A stretch of DNA of 35,990 nucleotides, from NCBI GenBank assembly GCA_011389575.1, contig JAABUB010000034.1, positions 1-35,990 on the forward strand, in the 5' to 3' direction. Positions 1,338 through 31,608 of the stretch are shown piece by piece. Within the stretch, counting starts at the first letter, position 1. Every line of letters starts with the position of its first letter. This DNA is from Desulfotignum sp. Lineage in GTDB: Bacteria > Desulfobacterota > Desulfobacteria > Desulfobacterales > Desulfobacteraceae. The position numbers were made by a program, and so were the translations under genes. Below the pieces are notes generated by a model that saw only the letters and a program-made list of their open reading frames with translations, did not search any database and was not told the origin of the DNA.

Positions 1338-3713
1338 TCATCCTTGAGCTTCATCATCATAAAGGCCCATACCCGGATAATACTTTTTAGCACATTCAGG
1401 GCAGATGCCATGGCTGAATTCAGTATCAGAATGTTCATGAATATATGATTCGATTTTACTCCAATCCCCCTTGTCATCACGGATATTTTTGCAATGGGAG
1501 CAAATGGGTAATAACCTGCTCAGTGTTTTGACCTCGCCGAGTGCTTTTTGAAGATCCGAAATCAGCTTGTCCCGCTGTTCTTCGGTCCGCTTGCGCTCGG
1601 CAACCTCCACTCTGAGCCGCTGCAAGGCATCTGCCAGTTCCTTTGCTTGCGTTGCGGCCTCAATCCGCAGTCTGGATTGCTGCATCTGGTGTGCATAATT
1701 GCGAAGTTGTGTAATCTGTTTTTCTACCAGAGCTTTTTGGATCTCCCGCCCCTGTTCTTCGGTCAGTTTGCCGGTTCCTTTACCATTGGTAAGACTGCCA
1801 TCAAGGGACTTCCGGTATGCTGCTTCCATTGAGCAAATTTTGGCAGCGGCACCCCATCTGCTATAACAGACATAGGCCTGCTGCCAGTAAACATGCGAAA
1901 GTCGCTCATTTCCGCATTCCAGCCAGAATCTGTGTGCCCGTTCATTCGCCATGCCTTCCCACTGTAAAAAGTTGTCTGCCTGAGCTGCTTCTATCGCCTT
2001 GTCATAAAACTGCATGGCTTCAACTGGCCTGGCATCGATTCGGGCCAGTTCCGCAGCAGCCAGCAGGTATTTATGTTCAAAATTTTCAGGGCAGTTGTCT
2101 GCCCAGATGCGAAGCCTGCCGATCATCCGGTCAAGTTCAGTGCGCCATTTTTTTTGCCTTTTTTCATCCGACTTTGAATAGAGTGAGGTAAGAATGAGCA
2201 GACGCGCAAAAACATGCTCAGGCCAGGGTAAAAGTCCCTGGGTCCCCACTGTGTAAATCAGCGGTTCTGCTTCATCGGACAGCACCAGTGCGCCGTTATG
2301 ATCGCCTGACAACAGAAAAGAAAATGTTTTTAAAACCTTATAAATGCAGGTGACCTGGATATTATGATGATCCGCGACCCGCTGGAGATACTCCTTTTCA
2401 GGTTGGTCATCGAGCCTGTTTGACAAAGCACTTTCATCTGATAATCGGCCGAAAATGTTGAGGCCTCCCTCCAACATATCAATGGCCCATTGATTGTGTC
2501 GTGTCCGGCTGAATTCAAGGGAATGTTCCGTCTCCTGAATCAGATCCGCCAGTGGAATGCCCTGGTAGAACCGGCAATACATGTTGTGTCCGAAAGCATA
2601 AGCCGCGTATTGCAGATTGCCCGACTGCAATCCTATTTCATTGGCATCCGTATAATCCTGTGCGCCATACCTGAGATGCCTGAACCAATGCCGAATCGAG
2701 CTGCCGATCATCAGATAAAATACGCTTTGATAAGACGGGGATCGGAACGTGCCGGTCATGAGACGCGTCGCCAGTTCACTGAACGCCTTTGCCGTCGCGT
2801 AATCATTATCCATCCATCCCAGAAGTCCGCCAAATGCCGTGTGGCTATAACCCACCTGAGGGATATTCCCGTAATGAATGGTCAGGCTTACCACTTTTGG
2901 TACAATCACGCCCCATAACCTCTGGTGTGACCGGTAGCATGGCGGCCCCATCGTAATCAGGATTTTAGAGGCCGTGAGCATTTCAGGACTGCTCATAACG
3001 GGCAGTTCGACCAGCGAGGGGACCGAACGGCTTTCCAACGCCTTGCGCACCTGTGCAATCTCATGATTACAAGCCTCTTCGTAGCCATCCTCAGGCAGGT
3101 TGATCCCCAGTATAGCCAGCGCCAGTCGTCCCGTCGCGATAGCCTCCGGGTATCTGGACAGCAAGGTGTATTGAACGATAAGATGATTGAGGACATCCGC
3201 CTTTTCGAGGGCTGTTCTGGAATGAGCTGCAGCCTGCTGGTTGTACTTTTCGGCCGCGTTGCGGTCTCCTTCAAGGAATTCGCATTCTGCCCGCCCTATG
3301 AAAAGACTCATGGCTAATTCGTGGTGGTCGCGCCACAAAAGTTCCACAAACCCAGGGGTTTCCAGAAAACGATCTGCTGCCCGGTAATACTGAAGTGCTG
3401 AGCGGTATGCCAAAGCGGCGTAAGCTTTACGTGCTGCACGCACGTTTAACGCAACCACTTTTACCTGTTCTGTATCATCCTGTATCAGGACAGACCCGGC
3501 ATTCAAATCGTTCACAACCTCGAACAATCTTTCGGCAAGCTGTTCCGGATGAAGGCTGGCGAGCAGCATTCTTCCGATTTTCAGCAGAATACCGGGCAGT
3601 TCTGCCGGTTCAATTAATGAATAAGCCGCCTGTTGTATCCGGTCATGCAGGAACCTGAATGCCCTGGGACCGTGAAGCACTTCCGAAGGAGAATGTTCTC
3701 CGTCACTTTCCAC
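1338..3713 (-). pseudogene. N-terminally truncated giant sensor kinase (predicted-ATPase/TPR region plus coiled coil and CxxC tail)
   Basis: The 791-codon open frame begins with GPRAFRFLHDRIQQAAYSLI, a motif usually found deep inside trifunctional proteins that carry a Ser/Thr kinase, an AAA ATPase, a long TPR-like region and then a GAF/histidine kinase part. Here the kinase and ATPase are absent and only the helical-repeat region (about residues 90-620), a coiled coil (about 650-725) and a C-terminal CxxC...CxxC module (LLPICSHCKNIRDDKGDWSK then HGICPECAKK) remain. The apparent start is a GTG inside the former protein. The upstream DNA is an MgtE fragment on the other strand, so the 5' part was lost by rearrangement. 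A stable truncated product is possible, but signalling output is unlikely. Confidence 0.75.
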
Positions 3714-24231: not shown

Positions 24232-24666
24232 ATGAAGTTTACACCCATGAATTTTCAGATTCCCGTGGCAGCAGGAGGGGTGGCCCTGATGCCTTTTGTT
24301 CTGATGCAGTTTGCTTTGCCCCACGGAGATGGTATGATTACCCTGAACTCCCTTTTGATTCTGAACTTTGCGTATGTCATCGCCGTGGGCTGGGGAGTCT
24401 TCTGCATCTGTCTGCTGACGGGCTATCTGCGCAACTTCATGCGGGAAAGCTATTCACCGGCCCAGTGGGGAATGATCTGAGCGCTGGTGGGCTCCCAGGT
24501 CCTGGGAGGACATCTTTACGGAAACTACTTTGCCAGCCCGGTTCTCATGTGGCTGAACTATCTTTCCATCGTGGCCGTGGTCATTGTCTATACCCTGGTG
24601 TTTTTCAAACAAAAGGGCCTCAATCGACTGCAAAGTGACACCGCATCCGGTACAGCTGAGCTTTGA
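24232..24666 (+). CDS. Small membrane selenoprotein, in-frame UGA at residue 83
   Basis: 144 residues when the UGA at 24478-24480 is read as selenocysteine. It starts at an ATG with GGAG upstream. Four hydrophobic segments are visible: about 10-30, 40-62, 82-98 and 103-120. The last segment before the UGA ends SPAQWGMI-U-ALVGSQVLGG, and the protein-like frame continues smoothly through YFASPVLMWLNYLSIVAVVI to a normal stop. A SECIS-like hairpin with loop GGUCC follows the UGA. From memory it resembles a family annotated as TsoY (seleno)proteins, distantly like TDT/SLAC1 membrane proteins; that name is tentative. It may move or present a sulfur or selenium species for the DsrE-like proteins encoded next. 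Alternative: a nonsense-mutated gene, but hairpin and context argue against this. Confidence 0.75.
24478..24508 (+). promoter_or_regulatory. Bacterial SECIS-like element 1
   Basis: UGA, then 11 bases, then the perfect stem CUCCCA/UGGGAG with apical loop GGUCC. The GGU lies at bases 21-23 counted from the U of UGA, close to its place in the E. coli fdhF SECIS, where it contacts SelB. Confidence 0.78.
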
Positions 24667-24777: not shown

Positions 24778-25131
24778 ATGAAAAAGATCACTTTTATGCT
24801 GGGATCAGCTCCTTATGGGGGCCAGGACGTGGATACGGTTCTGGGTATAGCTGATGCCGCCTTGAAAAGAGGGCATCAGGTCACCATCGTGGGATCAGGC
24901 GACGGCACCTATGGGTTCCTCAAGGATCAGCGTGCATCCGGAGCACCGCATGCAGGGAAGGGATTTGCCGCACTGGCGGAACAAGGCGCCCAAATCGATC
25001 TGTGAGGCACCTGCTTCAGCTTCCGCGGTCTGCGGAAGGAACAGTTCATCGAGGGTGCAAAACCGGGTACACTGAGAAGTCTGTTCAAACATCTTGGTGA
25101 AACAGACATTGTGATCAATGCCGGGCCATAA
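24778..25131 (+). CDS. DsrE/TusD-like sulfurtransferase selenoprotein, in-frame UGA at residue 76 (UGTC motif)
   Basis: 117 residues when the UGA at 25003-25005 is read through. The start MKKITFMLGSAPYGGQDVDT follows a GGAGG-type site. The N-terminal half is a DsrE/TusD-fold strand-helix pattern (APYGGQDVDTVLGIADAALK, VTIVGSGDG). The UGA falls in GAQIDL-U-GTCFSFRGL, where DsrE and TusD carry the catalytic persulfide cysteine near residue 78; the result is a UxxC redox motif. Sequence after the UGA (EGAKPGTLRSLFKHLGETDI, VINAGP) stays family-like to a UAA stop. A perfect 7-bp hairpin with loop GGUCU follows, the same loop as E. coli fdhF. DsrE-like selenoproteins have been reported in Desulfobacterota. 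DsrF- and DsrH-like genes come next. It should act in the cytoplasm as a sulfur (or selenium) carrier. Confidence 0.88.
25003..25038 (+). promoter_or_regulatory. Bacterial SECIS element 2 (strongest)
   Basis: The stem CUUCCGC/GCGGAAG is perfect over 7 bp and closes on GGUCU, identical to the apical loop of the E. coli formate dehydrogenase SECIS. GGU lies at bases 25-27 from the UGA. Confidence 0.9.
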
Positions 25132-25143
25132 ATGGAGGATGCC

Positions 25144-25530
25144 ATGACAAAAGATAAAGATATATTGATTGTTGTCCGCAAAGGGCCGTATGGCGGTTTT
25201 CAGGCGGCCGAGGCGCTGCGTCATGCCAATGGATCGCTGTCACTGGGGTTCCGCCCCATCGTCGTTCTTGTGGATGACGGGGTTTACCTGGCAAAGGAAG
25301 GCCAGAATCCCGGTCAAAGCCAGTGGCTGGCCCTGAGCGAGACATTTGATGAGATTATTGCCCGGGGGCTTTATGAAAACAAAGATAATCCCGCTGAATT
25401 TTATGTGGAAAAAGAATCGCTTTTTGACCGGGGGTTGCGTGTTGACGACCTGATCGAAAGTCTGGAGCCCATTAATCATGAAAAGGTTTCAGAATTGATG
25501 AGCATCCACCCTCTGCAACTGATTTTTTAG
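25144..25530 (+). CDS. DsrF/TusC-like sulfur-relay protein
   Basis: 128 residues from the ATG at 25144, chosen because GGAGG lies six bases upstream. The start DILIVVRKGPYGGFQAAEAL and the later FRPIVVLVDDGVYLAKEG match the small DsrE/DsrF-superfamily fold as in TusC/DsrF (KGPYG motif, strand then DDGV). It has no cysteine at a DsrE-like position, as expected for a structural F-type subunit of a DsrEFH hexamer. It follows the selenoprotein DsrE by 12 bases and precedes the H-type gene by 9, so the three proteins probably form a complex. Confidence 0.8.
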   Translation: MTKDKDILIVVRKGPYGGFQAAEALRHANGSLSLGFRPIVVLVDDGVYLAKEGQNPGQSQWLALSETFDEIIARGLYENKDNPAEFYVEKESLFDRGLRVDDLIESLEPINHEKVSELMSIHPLQLIF

Positions 25531-25539
25531 GAGGTTGAA

Positions 25540-25872
25540 ATGAAAATTGCCATTTTACTGAAAAGTGGCCCCTCTTCGATTGAAGCACAGCGTGCCCTGC
25601 AAGTGACAACGGATATGATGTCCCGGGGAGACACGGTTCATCTGTATCTGCTGCAGGATGCTGTTCACTTGAGCCGGCCGGACCTGAAAACCGGTTTAAC
25701 CGGGACGCTTGACCAGCTGGTTGACAAGGGGCTCCAGGTGAGTTATCTCACCACGGATGTCGAACTCCGGGGCCTGGATACGTCAGCCGTTCTGGAAAAA
25801 ATTTCGGGCGGGACATATGAAACCCTGGTGGATTTGATGACGTCCAGCGACCGGGTGATCGGGATGCTATAG
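25540..25872 (+). CDS. DsrH/TusB- or DsrE-like small sulfur-relay protein
   Basis: 110 residues. MKIAILLKSGPSSIEAQRAL and DTVHLYLLQDAVHL give the alternating strand-helix pattern of the DsrE/DsrH superfamily; family-level placement as the third (H/TusB-like) partner rests on size and order. No cysteine is present, although DsrH and TusB usually have one, so a persulfide on this subunit is unlikely. AGGAGG precedes the ATG. Twelve bases separate its stop from the ArsR gene. Confidence 0.7.
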   Translation: MKIAILLKSGPSSIEAQRALQVTTDMMSRGDTVHLYLLQDAVHLSRPDLKTGLTGTLDQLVDKGLQVSYLTTDVELRGLDTSAVLEKISGGTYETLVDLMTSSDRVIGML

Positions 25873-25884
25873 GCTGTTTGAAAC

Positions 25885-26211
25885 ATGGATAACTCAAAAC
25901 CATTGGATAATGATCACCTCACGCAGGTAGCATTTCTTGCCAAAAGCCTGTCTGACGGCAACCGGTTGAGGATTTTACAAATGATCAGCAGCGGCAGGAA
26001 ATCGGTTTCCGCAATTATCGAAGCCCTTGATCTATCCCAGCCCCTGGTTTCCCATCACCTCAAGGAGCTGAAACGCACGCTTCTGGTGAAAGTGGAAAGG
26101 GAAGGCCCGTTTGTTTTTTATGAACTGGCTGATCCCCGGATTCTTGACGTATTGCAGATATTAAACCGGGTGGCCGGGGATCTTCTGGCCGCACGGAAAA
26201 ATTATTTTTAA
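25885..26211 (+). CDS. ArsR/SmtB-family transcriptional regulator
   Basis: 108 residues. LAKSLSDGNRLRILQMISSG, then SVSAIIEALDLSQPLVSHHL and KELKRTLLVKVEREGPFVFY form the ArsR winged helix with recognition helix SQPLVSHHLKELK. No CVC metal-binding motif is present, so it may sense a sulfur, selenium or redox signal rather than a metal through that site. It probably binds the ATATAAA/TTTATAT palindrome at the operon promoter and represses its own operon. Confidence 0.85.
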   Translation: MDNSKPLDNDHLTQVAFLAKSLSDGNRLRILQMISSGRKSVSAIIEALDLSQPLVSHHLKELKRTLLVKVEREGPFVFYELADPRILDVLQILNRVAGDLLAARKNYF

Positions 26212-26235: not shown

Positions 26236-26685
26236 ATGAATGAACTTTTCGATCTGGTTTCAGGTATGGCGCCGGAAAAAGCGTTATCCCAGATTTCCGG
26301 CACCATAGAACGGCTTCTGGCCGATCTGGACAGTGATGCCCGGGAACGGTTCCTGATGGGCCTGATCAGTCAATCCGAAGAAGACAAGATTTCCGGACTG
26401 GTGCACCTGTGACTGGCCGAATGCATGGGCGAAGGTGTCGACCCAACGCAGATGTGCCAGAGTCTGGTGGACAAGGTGGCACAATCCGAGCAATTGAGCG
26501 CTATTGTGGAGATGGATTTGCTGGTTTTGTTTGAAGACTGGCTGGAGGAACTGGAAACCGAGGTGCTCAATGTGTTGAAAAAAAATGCCTCCCTGGATGA
26601 AAAAGCCATTGCCGGGACACTGGGATTGTCAAACCGGGGGGCTGCCTTTCTGGTGTCAAAGCTCAAAAGGCAGGGCCGATTGTAA
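26236..26685 (+). CDS. Unrecognised selenoprotein candidate, in-frame UGA at residue 59
   Basis: 149 residues when the UGA at 26410-26412 is read through. The N-terminal part MNELFDLVSGMAPEKALSQI...RERFLMGLISQSEED is helical. The UGA falls in ISGLVHL-U-LAECMGEGVD, a U-x3-C arrangement, and the frame continues with DPTQMCQSLVDKVAQ and an acidic helix. The C-terminal 45 residues (DEKAIAGTLGLSNRGAAFLV SKLK) look like a winged-helix or helix-turn-helix. No family is recognised. A hairpin with GGU in its loop follows the UGA. The ribosome site is weak (AAAGG). It lies 24 bases after ArsR in the same operon as two other UGA genes, which strengthens the case; a nonsense mutation is the alternative. 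Confidence 0.65.
26410..26445 (+). promoter_or_regulatory. Bacterial SECIS-like element 3
   Basis: The stem UGGGCGA/UCG(A)CCCA has seven pairs with one bulged A and closes on AGGUG. GGU lies at bases 25-27 from the UGA, the same spacing as in element 2. Weaker than element 2 because of the bulge. Confidence 0.65.
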
Positions 26686-27229: not shown

Positions 27230-27715
27230 ATGAACAATTTTGATTATGATCTTGTGATCATCGGTGCCGGTCCGGCCGGACTTACTGCCGGGGTGAAAAA
27301 AGTCTTTCTGCTCCACCGCAGGGATCAACTCCGGGCCGCCAAAATTCTCCAGGAAAGGGCCTTTGCCAGCAGCAAGATCGAAATACTCTGGAATACTGTG
27401 GCCACAGGTGTTGAAGGGCTTTTTGGTATTGAAGGGGTCCATGTCAGAAATGTCAAAACCGAAGAAGAAAAAACCCTTAAGGCGAACGGATGTTTTATCT
27501 GGGTGGGAACCTTGCCCAATGCGGAATTTTTAGGCGACGATATCATTACTGATGAATATGGATTTATCCTTACTGACGCCCGGATGGAAACCAATATCCC
27601 GGGGGTATATGCTGCAGGCGATATCAGGGACACCCCCCTGCGTCAGGTGTCCACAGCAGTGGGGGACGGCGCCATAGCCACCTTGGCAGCAGAACATTAT
27701 ATTGAGAACCTGTGA
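27230..27715 (+). pseudogene. trxB: Thioredoxin reductase with internal deletion (no CxxC)
   Basis: 161 residues against about 305 in the family. The FAD-binding start DYDLVIIGAGPAGLTAG jumps directly to KKVFLLHRRDQLRAAKILQE in the NADPH domain. This removes the rest of the first FAD part, the redox-active CxxC and the GxGxxA nucleotide loop. The C-terminal FAD motif GVYAAGDIRDTPLRQVSTAV is intact. The join is in frame. It cannot reduce thioredoxin. GGAG lies seven bases before the ATG. Confidence 0.85.
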
Positions 27716-28938: not shown

Positions 28939-29672
28939 ATCAATGGATCGCGTTCTGGAGCATTTTTGTCAAGGATTTGAAAACCTATTACCTGAAACCC
29001 CCCAATATCAGCTGGGGACTGATTTTTCCGCTGGCATGGACCGGCATGTTTTTTGTCAAGACCGGCAGCGATCTTTCCAGCATTCCAGAGGTCCTTCCCG
29101 GCGTGATGGCGGTGTCCATTCTTTTCGGCACCACCTCCATGCTGGCGGTGACCATCACCTTTGAAAAAAAGAACCGCTCCTTTGAGCGTCTCCTGCTGGC
29201 ACCCCTTTCCTTTGAAATCCTGATGCTGGCCAAAACCAGCGGGGCCATCCTGTTTGGAATACTCAACGCCCTGGTGCCCCTTTTTCTGGCGGTATGGTTG
29301 ACCGATCTGTCACAGGTGGCATGGGGCGTGCTGGTACCGGCCGTGTTCCTGATTTCCGTGGCATCCACATTCATGGGGCTGTTCATTGCCGTGGCTGTCA
29401 GTGAGGTGTTCGAGGCCCAGACCTTTTCCAATTTTTTCCGGTTTCCCATGATCTTTCTGTGCGGGCTGTTTTTTCCCGTCAGTGCGCTGCCGTTTTTTCT
29501 GGAACCACTTGCCTATTTTCTGCCCTTGACCTATGGGGCGGACCTGCTGCACGGGGCCGTGCGCGGAGAACATACCCTGCCATATCTGGTGGACCTGGCA
29601 GTTCTGGCCGTTTTCTGCATCGGTCTGTTTGCTGTCAGCCTGTTCAACATCCGGAGGCGGTGGATTGCCTGA
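28935..29672 (+). CDS. ABC-2-type exporter permease
   Basis: 245 residues with six predicted membrane helices and an N-terminal amphipathic segment (IFVKDLKTYYLKPPNIS). The stretch FFRFPMIFLCGLFFPVSALP before LTYGADLLHGAVRG is the conserved ABC-2 signature region of DrrB/NodJ-type permeases. It forms the export channel with the ATPase just upstream. Complete; the next gene is on the other strand. Confidence 0.87.
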   Translation: MNQWIAFWSIFVKDLKTYYLKPPNISWGLIFPLAWTGMFFVKTGSDLSSIPEVLPGVMAVSILFGTTSMLAVTITFEKKNRSFERLLLAPLSFEILMLAKTSGAILFGILNALVPLFLAVWLTDLSQVAWGVLVPAVFLISVASTFMGLFIAVAVSEVFEAQTFSNFFRFPMIFLCGLFFPVSALPFFLEPLAYFLPLTYGADLLHGAVRGEHTLPYLVDLAVLAVFCIGLFAVSLFNIRRRWIA

Positions 29673-29784
29673 TTTTGAAGATCAAGTGGATCAATCGATT
29701 CAAGATTACGGCAGAAACGGCTATGTGTTGAGAAAGTGCTGTTGGTTTCTAAATCATTCCTCAAAGTGATGGATCGATTGTCTG

Positions 29785-30267
29785 CTATACCGAAAGCTTT
29801 TCCCAGCGCAGAACATGGGCCACCACCATGCCTGCAATAAATCCGGCCGCCAGGTTGGATGCCAGGGTGATGCCCAGTATCAATGTGGCGACAAACAGGT
29901 CTTTGCGCTGATTCAGGTCTATCATGGCAAGGGTCAGTTGCGCACCTGCGAATATGAGCAATACCCCCAAAATGGACATGGGGATTAAGTTGAACACCTG
30001 GACGATACTGTTGCCGAAAACAATGGCCAGGCCCAGCAAAAGCCCGCCGGCCACAACTATCAACCCGGCCGGAAATTTCCGGTTGTCCAGCAGCAGCAGG
30101 GTTGCAATGGCACCGATGATCCCGATGATGACACTTATTGGAATGCCGGCCAGGGCCTGTACAGTGAGATGGGGTTCCACTGCCTCCTGTAGGGCCTGGT
30201 ATTTCGAGGTTCCCATGATGAACTTTACCCCTCCGGAAATCAGCAAAGCACCGGTGGACAGCTGCAT
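29785..30267 (-). pseudogene. MOT1/SulP-like molybdate or sulfate transporter, C-terminal half
   Basis: 160 residues, four to five helices. IPMSILGVLLIFAGAQLTLA followed by DLNQRKDLFVATLILGITLA and SNLAAGFIAGMVVAH matches the end of putative sulfate/molybdate transporters of the MOT1 type (about 370-400 residues). The N-terminal half, including the substrate signature, is missing. The ATG at 30267 is probably internal. Upstream sequence to 30388 shows no transporter coding in any frame I followed. Confidence 0.65.
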
Positions 30268-30425
30268 CCAGCGGCACCTGGCTGTCCCGTATCAGGCAGG
30301 GTCACGCGGTGTGGGCGTTTTTGTCCTGTTTTTCCGTGGTGCTGCATCTGGACTGATTGGTTTCATGCCAAGGTCTAAATTTCTTTAGTGATTGTCGTTT
30401 CAGCTGGCCCTATGGTGACTGGTTT

Positions 30426-30526
30426 TCACCGTTCGATTAAAAAACGCCTGATTAAAAAAATATAACCGTTCGGTTAAAAATAGTTGACTTTTTCATAATA
30501 TAACCGTACGGTTATATTATGAAAAA
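30426..30526 (+). promoter_or_regulatory. hipBA operator region: three TAACCG-N2-CGGTTA-type sites, one inside a perfect 38-bp palindrome
   Basis: Sites: a degenerate one at 30426-30439, TAACCGTTCGGTTA at 30463-30476, and TAACCGTACGGTTA at the centre of a perfect 38-bp palindrome (30489-30526; arms TTTTTCATAATATAACCG). The multiple sites upstream of hipB fit cooperative autorepression by HipB dimers. TTGACT at 30484 could be a -35 box. The palindrome lies in the 5' leader or promoter and could also fold as a hairpin. Confidence 0.7.
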
Positions 30527-30538
30527 GGATCCAGAATC

Positions 30539-30799
30539 ATGAATAAAATAAATTATCCATACCGGGTCAGGCTGCCTGGTTACCTGGGAAAGGCAATCAG
30601 AGATACCCGGAAAAACAAGGACATGACCCAGAAAGTTCTGGCCGATCTGACCGGCACCAGTGTCAAATTCATCAGTGATGTTGAAAGAGGAAAAAATACG
30701 GCCCAGACAGATAAGGTCTTTGATCTTCTCCGGGCACTGGGCCTGATCGTATACATCGCACAGAACCCGCTTCCGGAAAACAAAGGTGATACCCGATGA
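30539..30799 (+). CDS. hipB: HipB-like antitoxin (Xre-family)
   Basis: 86 residues. LGKAIRDTRKNKDMTQKVLA, DLTGTSVKFISDVERGKNTA is a helix-turn-helix of the Xre/HipB type. It represses the operon at the upstream palindromes and binds HipA. Its stop overlaps the hipA start (ATGA). Intact. Confidence 0.85.
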   Translation: MNKINYPYRVRLPGYLGKAIRDTRKNKDMTQKVLADLTGTSVKFISDVERGKNTAQTDKVFDLLRALGLIVYIAQNPLPENKGDTR

Positions 30800-31608
30800 G
30801 CGGATTGCTGGTATTCTGGGATCAAAAGATAGTCGGCACCTTGACCCGCCACAAAAGAGGAAAGGTTGTTTTTCAATATAACAAAGACTGGCTGGCATCA
30901 GACGGCCATTCGATTTCGATTTCGCTTCCCTGTCAACAGGAAAAATTTGCCCCGGGTGTCAGCACGGCGTTCTTTGAAAACCTTTTGCCAGAAAGCCGCG
31001 CAAGATCCATACTGGCCCACAACTACCGATTTGATAAAAAAGATACCTTTGCTTTTTTGAATACTTTTGGGGAAGATTGCGCGGGTGCGCTTTCAATTAT
31101 TCCGGAAGAAAAAGAACCGGATTTTACGACCGGCCAGTACAAATGCATTGATTCAGAGTTGATTGAGATCCTGAATAAAATCGAGAAAGATCCGAAAAAA
31201 CATTCATTATACCCGGAAATAAAGGATGTCCGGCTTTCCATTGCCGGCGTTCAGGACAAATTACCCGTGTATCTGAAAGATGGGCGTTTTTATCTGCCGT
31301 TAAATTCAGGATCTGCAACAACACATATCATTAAGCCCGCGAATGCGGATTATCCGGAATTGACAAAAAATGGTGATACATACCGGGTGGAAAGGATTAA
31401 AATCCATTCCCTTGAAAAATTTGCAAAAACAATGAATTTTCGCTTGAGTTTTTTGCATAAAATCATAGAGGAAACACTGACTGCCGTTGGATACCAGCTT
31501 GCGCCACTCCTTGGCAAACATGAAAAACAGTATGGGAAAAGCACTGTCTATGATGAGTTGTATGAAAAAATCCAGGAAAACATGCGATCAATGAAAAAAA
31601 ATCAATAA
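30796..31608 (+). pseudogene. hipA: HipA-like kinase with the catalytic core deleted in frame
   Basis: 270 residues against about 420-440 in the family. HipA_N is present (LLVFWDQKIVGTLTRHKRGK, PCQQEKFAPGVSTAFFENLL), followed by the P-loop-like SIAGVQDKLPVYL and HIIKPANADYPELTKN. It then jumps to GDTYRVERIKIHSLEKFAKT, which belongs near the C-terminus. The missing middle of about 150 residues contains the NxxDxHxxN catalytic loop and the Mg-binding Asp, so it should not phosphorylate glutamyl-tRNA synthetase. It may still bind HipB and affect autoregulation. Confidence 0.82.

Follow-up and report, generated by a model that had tools for sequence, protein, structure and literature searches.

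The window, meaning the whole stretch of 35,990 nt from Desulfotignum sp. analysed here (GCA_011389575.1, contig JAABUB010000034.1, forward strand), contains a short reading frame running from ATG 24778 to UAA 25129-25131 with a UGA at codon 76 as its sole internal stop (Table 1). Read through this codon the frame encodes 117 residues (MKKITFMLGS...QIDL-U-GTCFSFRGLRKEQF...NAGP), the protein being referred to below as Sec-DsrE. The preliminary description of this DNA was right that the frame is broken only at codon 76, with the 40 further codons that it gave needing correction to 41 between the UGA and the UAA. The protein matches Pfam PF02635 (DsrE/DsrF-like) at 59.5 bits, passing the gathering cut-off of 22.7, with zero NCBIfam matches at E <= 0.01, the TusD/DsrE model TIGR03012 and the YedF model included. 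Since TIGR03012 finds no match Sec-DsrE is not filed as TusD/DsrE, though it may work like one, such that of the original DsrE/TusD assignment membership of the DsrE family holds and the TusD/DsrE equivalog does not.

Table 1. Features of the Sec-DsrE locus, in positions of the window.
Feature	Position	Strand	Basis
TsoY (SLAC1-type membrane protein), middle gone, UGA 24478-24480	24232..24666	+	two NF047643 fragments
Hairpin after TsoY UGA, 7-bp stem, loop GUC	24492..24508	+	folding z-score only -1.23
Sec-containing DsrE-family protein, 117 aa, motif U-G-T-C	24778..25131	+	PF02635 E 4.5e-16; 10 UGA orthologues including the window
In-frame UGA, codon 76 (Sec76)	25003..25005	+	column is Cys in A. 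vinosum DsrE (Cys78), YchN and TusD
Bacterial SECIS-like hairpin, 7-bp stem, loop GGUCU	25020..25038	+	inner 6 pairs kept in 9/9 distinct rows; codons CGC GGT CTG invariant in 10/10
DsrF/TusC-like subunit, without Cys; alternative start ATG 25144	25132..25530	+	PF02635 E 5e-8, over cut-off; TIGR03010 E 6e-9, below cut-off
DsrH/TusB-like subunit, without Cys in the window	25540..25872	+	PF04077 E 9e-7, over cut-off; TIGR03011 E 1.2e-6, below cut-off
TsoR, ArsR/SmtB-type regulator	25885..26211	+	NF045707, 154.4 bits against a cut-off of 115
TsoA, LULAXC-motif selenoprotein, 149 aa, UGA 26410-26412 (codon 59)	26236..26685	+	NF045695, 194.9 bits against a cut-off of 170, one TGA

Sec-DsrE heads a triad in the gene order of dsrEFH/tusDCB, with the F and H partners scoring over the Pfam cut-offs and below those of NCBIfam. 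The triad is intact in nine of the ten loci that carry an orthologue of Sec-DsrE (see below), while in the tenth (G361) the DsrF/DsrH part looks fused by deletion. The DsrF-like subunit lacks Cys in 9/9 loci, and the DsrH-like subunit lacks it in the three loci of the genus and has 2-5 Cys in the other six (n = 9). In the window, G132 and G232, the three loci of this genus, the triad as a whole has Sec76 and Cys79 and no further Sec or Cys. A dihydrolipoyl dehydrogenase gene lies directly after DsrH in G210, G055, L033 and L034, over cut-off in all four loci scanned, and the ORF list of G040 holds a frame resembling this enzyme at the same place. No such gene appears behind the triad in four further ORF lists (window, G132, G232, G671). 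G210 additionally has a lipoyl synthase downstream (over cut-off) and a NifS-type desulfurase upstream (below the NifS cut-off). Inspection by eye of the ORF lists for the window and the related loci brought up no TusA or YeeE gene. dsrA was matched in 8/8 genomes, over cut-off in six and fragmentary in the window's own genome.

The triad is flanked by members of the Tso (three-selenoprotein operon) families, of which TsoR and TsoA score over their cut-offs in the window. By comparison with the relative G132, in which TsoY is intact (495.9 bits, over cut-off), the window TsoY has an in-frame gap of 714 nt (238 codons) in its central part. A reading of TsoY as a YeeE/YedE transporter was rejected as the intact G132 copy falls in Pfam SLAC1, barely over the cut-off (PF03595, 29.6 bits against 27.9). 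With UGA codons in TsoA and TsoY, both named selenoprotein families, three UGA genes lie within 2.5 kb. There is no outstanding hairpin after the TsoA UGA of the window (z 0.18), so that the Sec reading of TsoA derives from conservation of the family. TsoB was over cut-off in 0/7 genomes. Elsewhere in the window's genome, three adjacent matches fall on different parts of the TsoB profile (G000:C126:1036-3641, within L137), one of which (3279-3641, profile 38-166) contains a TGA; this is perhaps a split TsoB-like set.

Other genes on the contig are also incomplete. The deletion junction within TsoY (24232-24666) has little microhomology, which would fit a genuine loss of DNA as well as an error of assembly. 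At 27230-27715 lies a thioredoxin-reductase-like gene with start and end present and the middle gone (profile 164-300 follows residue 21), and at the corresponding place G132 has unrelated DNA that looks by eye like an ArsR-type regulator gene. At 29672-31602 the blocks that match G132 are split in G132 by sequence absent from the window. Several of the contig's genes seem to have lost internal sequence, which points to problems of assembly or to decay.

The UGA of Sec-DsrE is conserved across related genomes. A profile search of 389 genomes of the class, the window's own included, gave eight matches at E <= 1e-8, seven with exactly one TGA at the same site and the eighth, 35% identical, with Cys. 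A scan of genome contigs returned nine loci. Two were new and had UGA (L033, L034), two were relatives with Cys (L036, L037) and five apparently belong to genomes found already. A search of the phylum added one further UGA orthologue (G671). The seven class matches, L033, L034 and G671 make up the ten orthologues used here, the window included, which are 71-97% identical, have TGA at codon 76 in 10/10 and end in TAA or TAG. Among them the median dN/dS was 0.109 before the UGA (24/45 pairs usable) and 0.111 after it (42/45), with mean pN/pS of 0.212 and 0.211, respectively, and judged by these ratios selection is equally strong on both sides of the UGA. Were the UGA a real stop or a sequencing error the gene would be a truncated pseudogene, a reading in keeping with the other internally deleted genes on the contig. 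Given the same UGA in all ten orthologues, equal constraint downstream of it and codons frozen inside and just before the hairpin, this is extremely improbable and it was rejected.

The position of the UGA corresponds to the active site of known DsrE-family proteins. The family profile matches YchN (E 2.8e-9), A. vinosum DsrE (2.7e-5) and TusD (0.003), and the UGA column is Cys in each, so that as had been proposed from the DNA alone the UGA aligns with the catalytic Cys, Cys78 of DsrE, and with the matching Cys of YchN and TusD. All 19 chosen rows have Cys or UGA at this column, in agreement with the earlier expectation for homologues, and none with another residue was seen. In the 28 of 42 more distant matches inspected by eye the motif starts with Cys throughout (27 CxxC and one CALS). 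As such, an in-frame UGA kept in 10/10 orthologues occupies a column that is Cys in distant homologues. The second part of the proposed motif, a resolving Cys three residues on, is present as Cys79 with a counterpart in YchN, but the aligned DsrE and TusD sequences do not have it. A structure model of the window protein, made with alignment rows from the related loci, has a pLDDT of 84.8, and Foldseek with this model gave YchN as the nearest solved structure (TM 0.85) followed by DsrE 2hy5_A (0.82) and TusD 2d1p_A (0.77), with DsrF structures also matched.

Further DsrE-family genes with in-frame stops were encountered during these searches. In L155 (G592:C2, about 48323-48643) the TGA lies outside the CxxC motif (HGU) and the motif Cys is kept, with a relative in G709 having Cys (HGC) at this site; the TGA may mark another Sec site within one DsrE subfamily or may be an error. 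L121 (7840-8154) and L134 (4340-4657), both Tso loci, hold a second DsrE-like gene with the motif UKKA, that is Sec without a resolving Cys at +3, adjoining a Cys-containing DsrE gene (CGTC). Another DsrE-family match in the window's own genome (G000:C68:14085-14342) has one TGA and one TAA and is possibly a broken copy.

The hairpin downstream of the UGA has the arrangement of a bacterial SECIS element, lying just 3′ of the UGA with a G in the apical loop. Its stem, CUUCCGC/GCGGAAG, occupies 25020-25026 and 25032-25038 and its GGUCU loop 25027-25031. The preliminary description was thus correct in calling a perfect 7-bp hairpin with this loop, but placed it immediately after the UGA when the stem starts 14 nt downstream. 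It had also likened the loop to that of E. coli fdhF, and the loop letters are indeed GGUCU in both, at 21 nt from the UGA in Sec-DsrE vs 18 nt in fdhF (NC_000913). Comparable hairpins, defined by a stem of at least 7 bp and a loop of 3-8 nt with G in its first two positions starting 16-37 nt past the UGA, follow 15 of the 1508 TGA triplets in the window with both strands counted, those of Sec-DsrE and TsoY among them, making the Sec-DsrE hairpin alone an event of about 1%. The folding z-score is modest (-2.08 over 46 nt and -1.10 over 63 nt), and an Rfam search gave 0 hits at the gathering score and so weak support for the hairpin. Across the nine distinct sequences all keep the inner six stem pairs and five leave the outermost pair unpaired, with stem covariation not significant by itself (83/500 shuffles reach the observed level with nine distinct rows). 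Among 56 degenerate codons that are invariant in amino acid only four, those of F80, R83, G84 and L85, use one codon throughout the ten orthologues, the last three within the hairpin and F80 just 5′ of it (hypergeometric 3.4e-4 for codons 77-86, a stretch picked after inspection of the data). GGTCT stands exactly 21 nt past the UGA in nine of 14 Sec-DsrE frames, the window included, and is missing from that place in the other five. On these alignments conservation, rather than the hairpin by itself, is the decisive evidence for Sec.

The genome is equipped for selenocysteine insertion. The presence of selA, selB, selC and selD in the same genome had been named beforehand as a check, with absence of selB or selC counting against Sec, and all four were found over their cut-offs: selA at 599.2 bits, selB at 344.1, tRNA-Sec at 76.9 and selD, which has its own internal TGA, at 367.7. 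The TGA in selD recurs in 6/6 over-cut-off copies. In the seven genomes with a Sec-DsrE gene that were compared selA is over cut-off in all and selD in six, the exception being G361, which is 77% complete. Judged on these comparisons the UGA of 24778-25131 is almost certainly decoded as selenocysteine, and the active site of this small sulfur-handling protein, from a lineage of sulfate reducers, very probably has selenium in place of sulfur.

The association of Sec-DsrE with Tso is partial. Among eight Sec-DsrE genomes TsoA was found in four, in all four within the same cluster, being over cut-off in two and split in two frames in G132 and G040, and TsoY was over cut-off in one. TsoA occurs in 46 of 395 genomes of the phylum. 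Apart from the window's own, 41 of the remaining 45 contributed the 43 TsoA loci inspected, several of which end at contig edges (G449, G625, G700 and G737, with weak partial matches, were left out). A DsrE-family frame was seen in 15 of these loci, with U at the motif column in 13, and none in 28, as against 0/37 unmatched control loci (129.9 kb). The Sec-DsrE frames of these loci belong to subfamilies that share only 13-23% identity with the window protein, no E-F-H triad turned up in the inspected TsoA loci with DsrE-family frames, and none of eight other Tso-neighbour DsrE frames was over an NCBIfam cut-off. DsrE genes are not rare, with a match somewhere in 142/395 genomes of the phylum using a Sec-rich profile, and among the best 40 rows of the phylum search 35 have one TGA and five have none, a ratio biased towards such proteins by that profile. 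Genes of the Sec-DsrE type also occur in genomes with no TsoA match, for example G744, G707 and G613.

DsrE-like selenoproteins with Sec first in UxxC (PF02635) are listed in the accessible parts of several reports (PMC1088965, 2005; PMC1794560, for D. vulgaris; PMC2398784; PMC13188914). The earlier remark that such proteins are known from Desulfobacterota is borne out both by D. vulgaris (PMC1794560) and by the common TGA-bearing DsrE frames across the phylum found here. In print since 2005 and common in the phylum, Sec-DsrE as such is therefore not new. The difference lies in the DsrF and DsrH partner genes, which are absent from the published descriptions in those parts, the comparison being by description only. 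Tso loci are described in the accessible part of PMC13188914, with TsoA, B, C, X and Y listed; the window resembles them in TsoR and TsoA, and G132 in an intact TsoY, but the window has a DsrEFH-like triad, TsoB is over cut-off in none of the seven genomes and Sec-DsrE has no NCBIfam model. The type II DsrE of cable bacteria is described as transferring sulfur via one Cys, with Cys78 named as the sulfur-transfer residue, and type II DsrEFH genes as occurring mostly in genomes with reductive dsrAB (accessible part of PMC13293266), the string 'seleno' not occurring in the main text of that paper. On the portions available of this source, the type I and II systems share with the window three clustered DsrE-family subunits with the active site in DsrE, while the window differs by Sec for Cys, an extra Cys at +3 and, as far as the ORF lists show by eye, Tso neighbours in place of yeeE/tusA. 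E. coli YchN, best match in both sequence and fold with C-x-x-C at the same place, has Cys where the window protein has Sec. For a Sec-headed DsrEFH triad there was no family model and no title or abstract in the literature searched, most subscription papers being beyond its reach.

With two partner-subunit genes and two other UGA genes beside it, Sec-DsrE looks like part of a selenium-based form of a known sulfur-relay machine. Probably the UGA is Sec and the protein, encoded in a Tso-type locus of sulfate reducers, is the chalcogen-binding member of a three-subunit complex akin to DsrEFH/TusBCD, with Sec76 accepting sulfur and Cys79 resolving. Sec coding, the active-site position and the operon with F and H partners are supported by the sequence comparisons, and we infer the chemistry of a selenosulfide carrier, with sulfur acceptance at Sec76 and resolution by Cys79 as set out in the preliminary description, and with re-reduction by a flavoprotein. 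Sec76 as a selenolate would take sulfane sulfur (Se-S-) from a donor, for example a rhodanese or TusA-type protein, and attack by Cys79 would then release the sulfur or pass it on, with formation of a Sec76-Cys79 selenenylsulfide. In half of the related loci an adjacent gene encodes a flavoprotein disulfide reductase, and an enzyme of this sort could re-reduce the bond. Counted against a DsrEFH-type sulfur acceptor are the unmatched TIGR03012, the DsrF- and DsrH-like hits below NCBIfam cut-offs, the lack of significant covariation, Cys in the DsrH-like subunits of six of nine loci and the absence of a dehydrogenase at four loci, together with the patchy occurrence of the gene (4/12 same-genus genomes), the fragmentary dsrA of its own genome and the nearby thioredoxin-reductase-like gene with its internal deletion.

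A motif of the CxxC type is as much a sign of thiol redox chemistry as of sulfur transfer, and the main rival is that Sec-DsrE is a Sec-dependent persulfide/polysulfide or disulfide reductase, not a sulfur carrier. In this reading a neighbouring NAD(P)H flavoprotein would supply electrons, U-G-T-C would alternate between the selenol and selenenylsulfide states and sulfide would be released. UxxC is a redox-type motif with its C-x-x-C equivalent in the nearest solved structure, YchN, the dihydrolipoyl dehydrogenase neighbours score over cut-off at each of the four loci scanned, and the CGXC motif of YedF has been read as redox-active (accessible part of PMC5322559). However, the partners kept in tusDCB order speak for a DsrEFH-type assembly, the active Cys of type II DsrE is a sulfur-transfer site (PMC13293266, in the part available) and four loci lack the dehydrogenase neighbour, which leaves a reductase a somewhat unlikely reading. 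A role in binding selenium as Se-Se or Se-S, whether to serve SelD or to detoxify, would parallel the one proposed for YedF/YedE and suit a locus rich in selenium proteins, and three of eight other Tso-locus DsrE-family frames are weakly YedF-like (TIGR03527 E 0.0015-0.0039, below cut-off). Yet the YedF model has no match to the window protein at E <= 0.01, and the window (C95) is on a different contig from both selD (C105) and selA (C163), such that a selenium carrier appears improbable.

For the sulfur-accepting subunit of a DsrEFH-like complex, the wider proposal that sulfate reducers possess a selenium-dependent DsrEFH machine in which Sec76 and Cys79 run as a selenosulfide relay is tentative, its chances lying a little short of even. 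Where gene callers treat UGA as a stop, Sec-DsrE would be truncated so that surveys of DsrEFH could miss it, and annotation of this kind would pass over a form with Sec as the sulfur-binding residue. If true, the recurrence of Sec-DsrE proteins of several distant subfamilies in Tso loci (13/43) would make them a regular, unnamed Tso component, and Sec-DsrE would give the poorly understood Tso loci a biochemical handle, since its fold has relatives of solved structure and a sulfur-carrier chemistry that is known.
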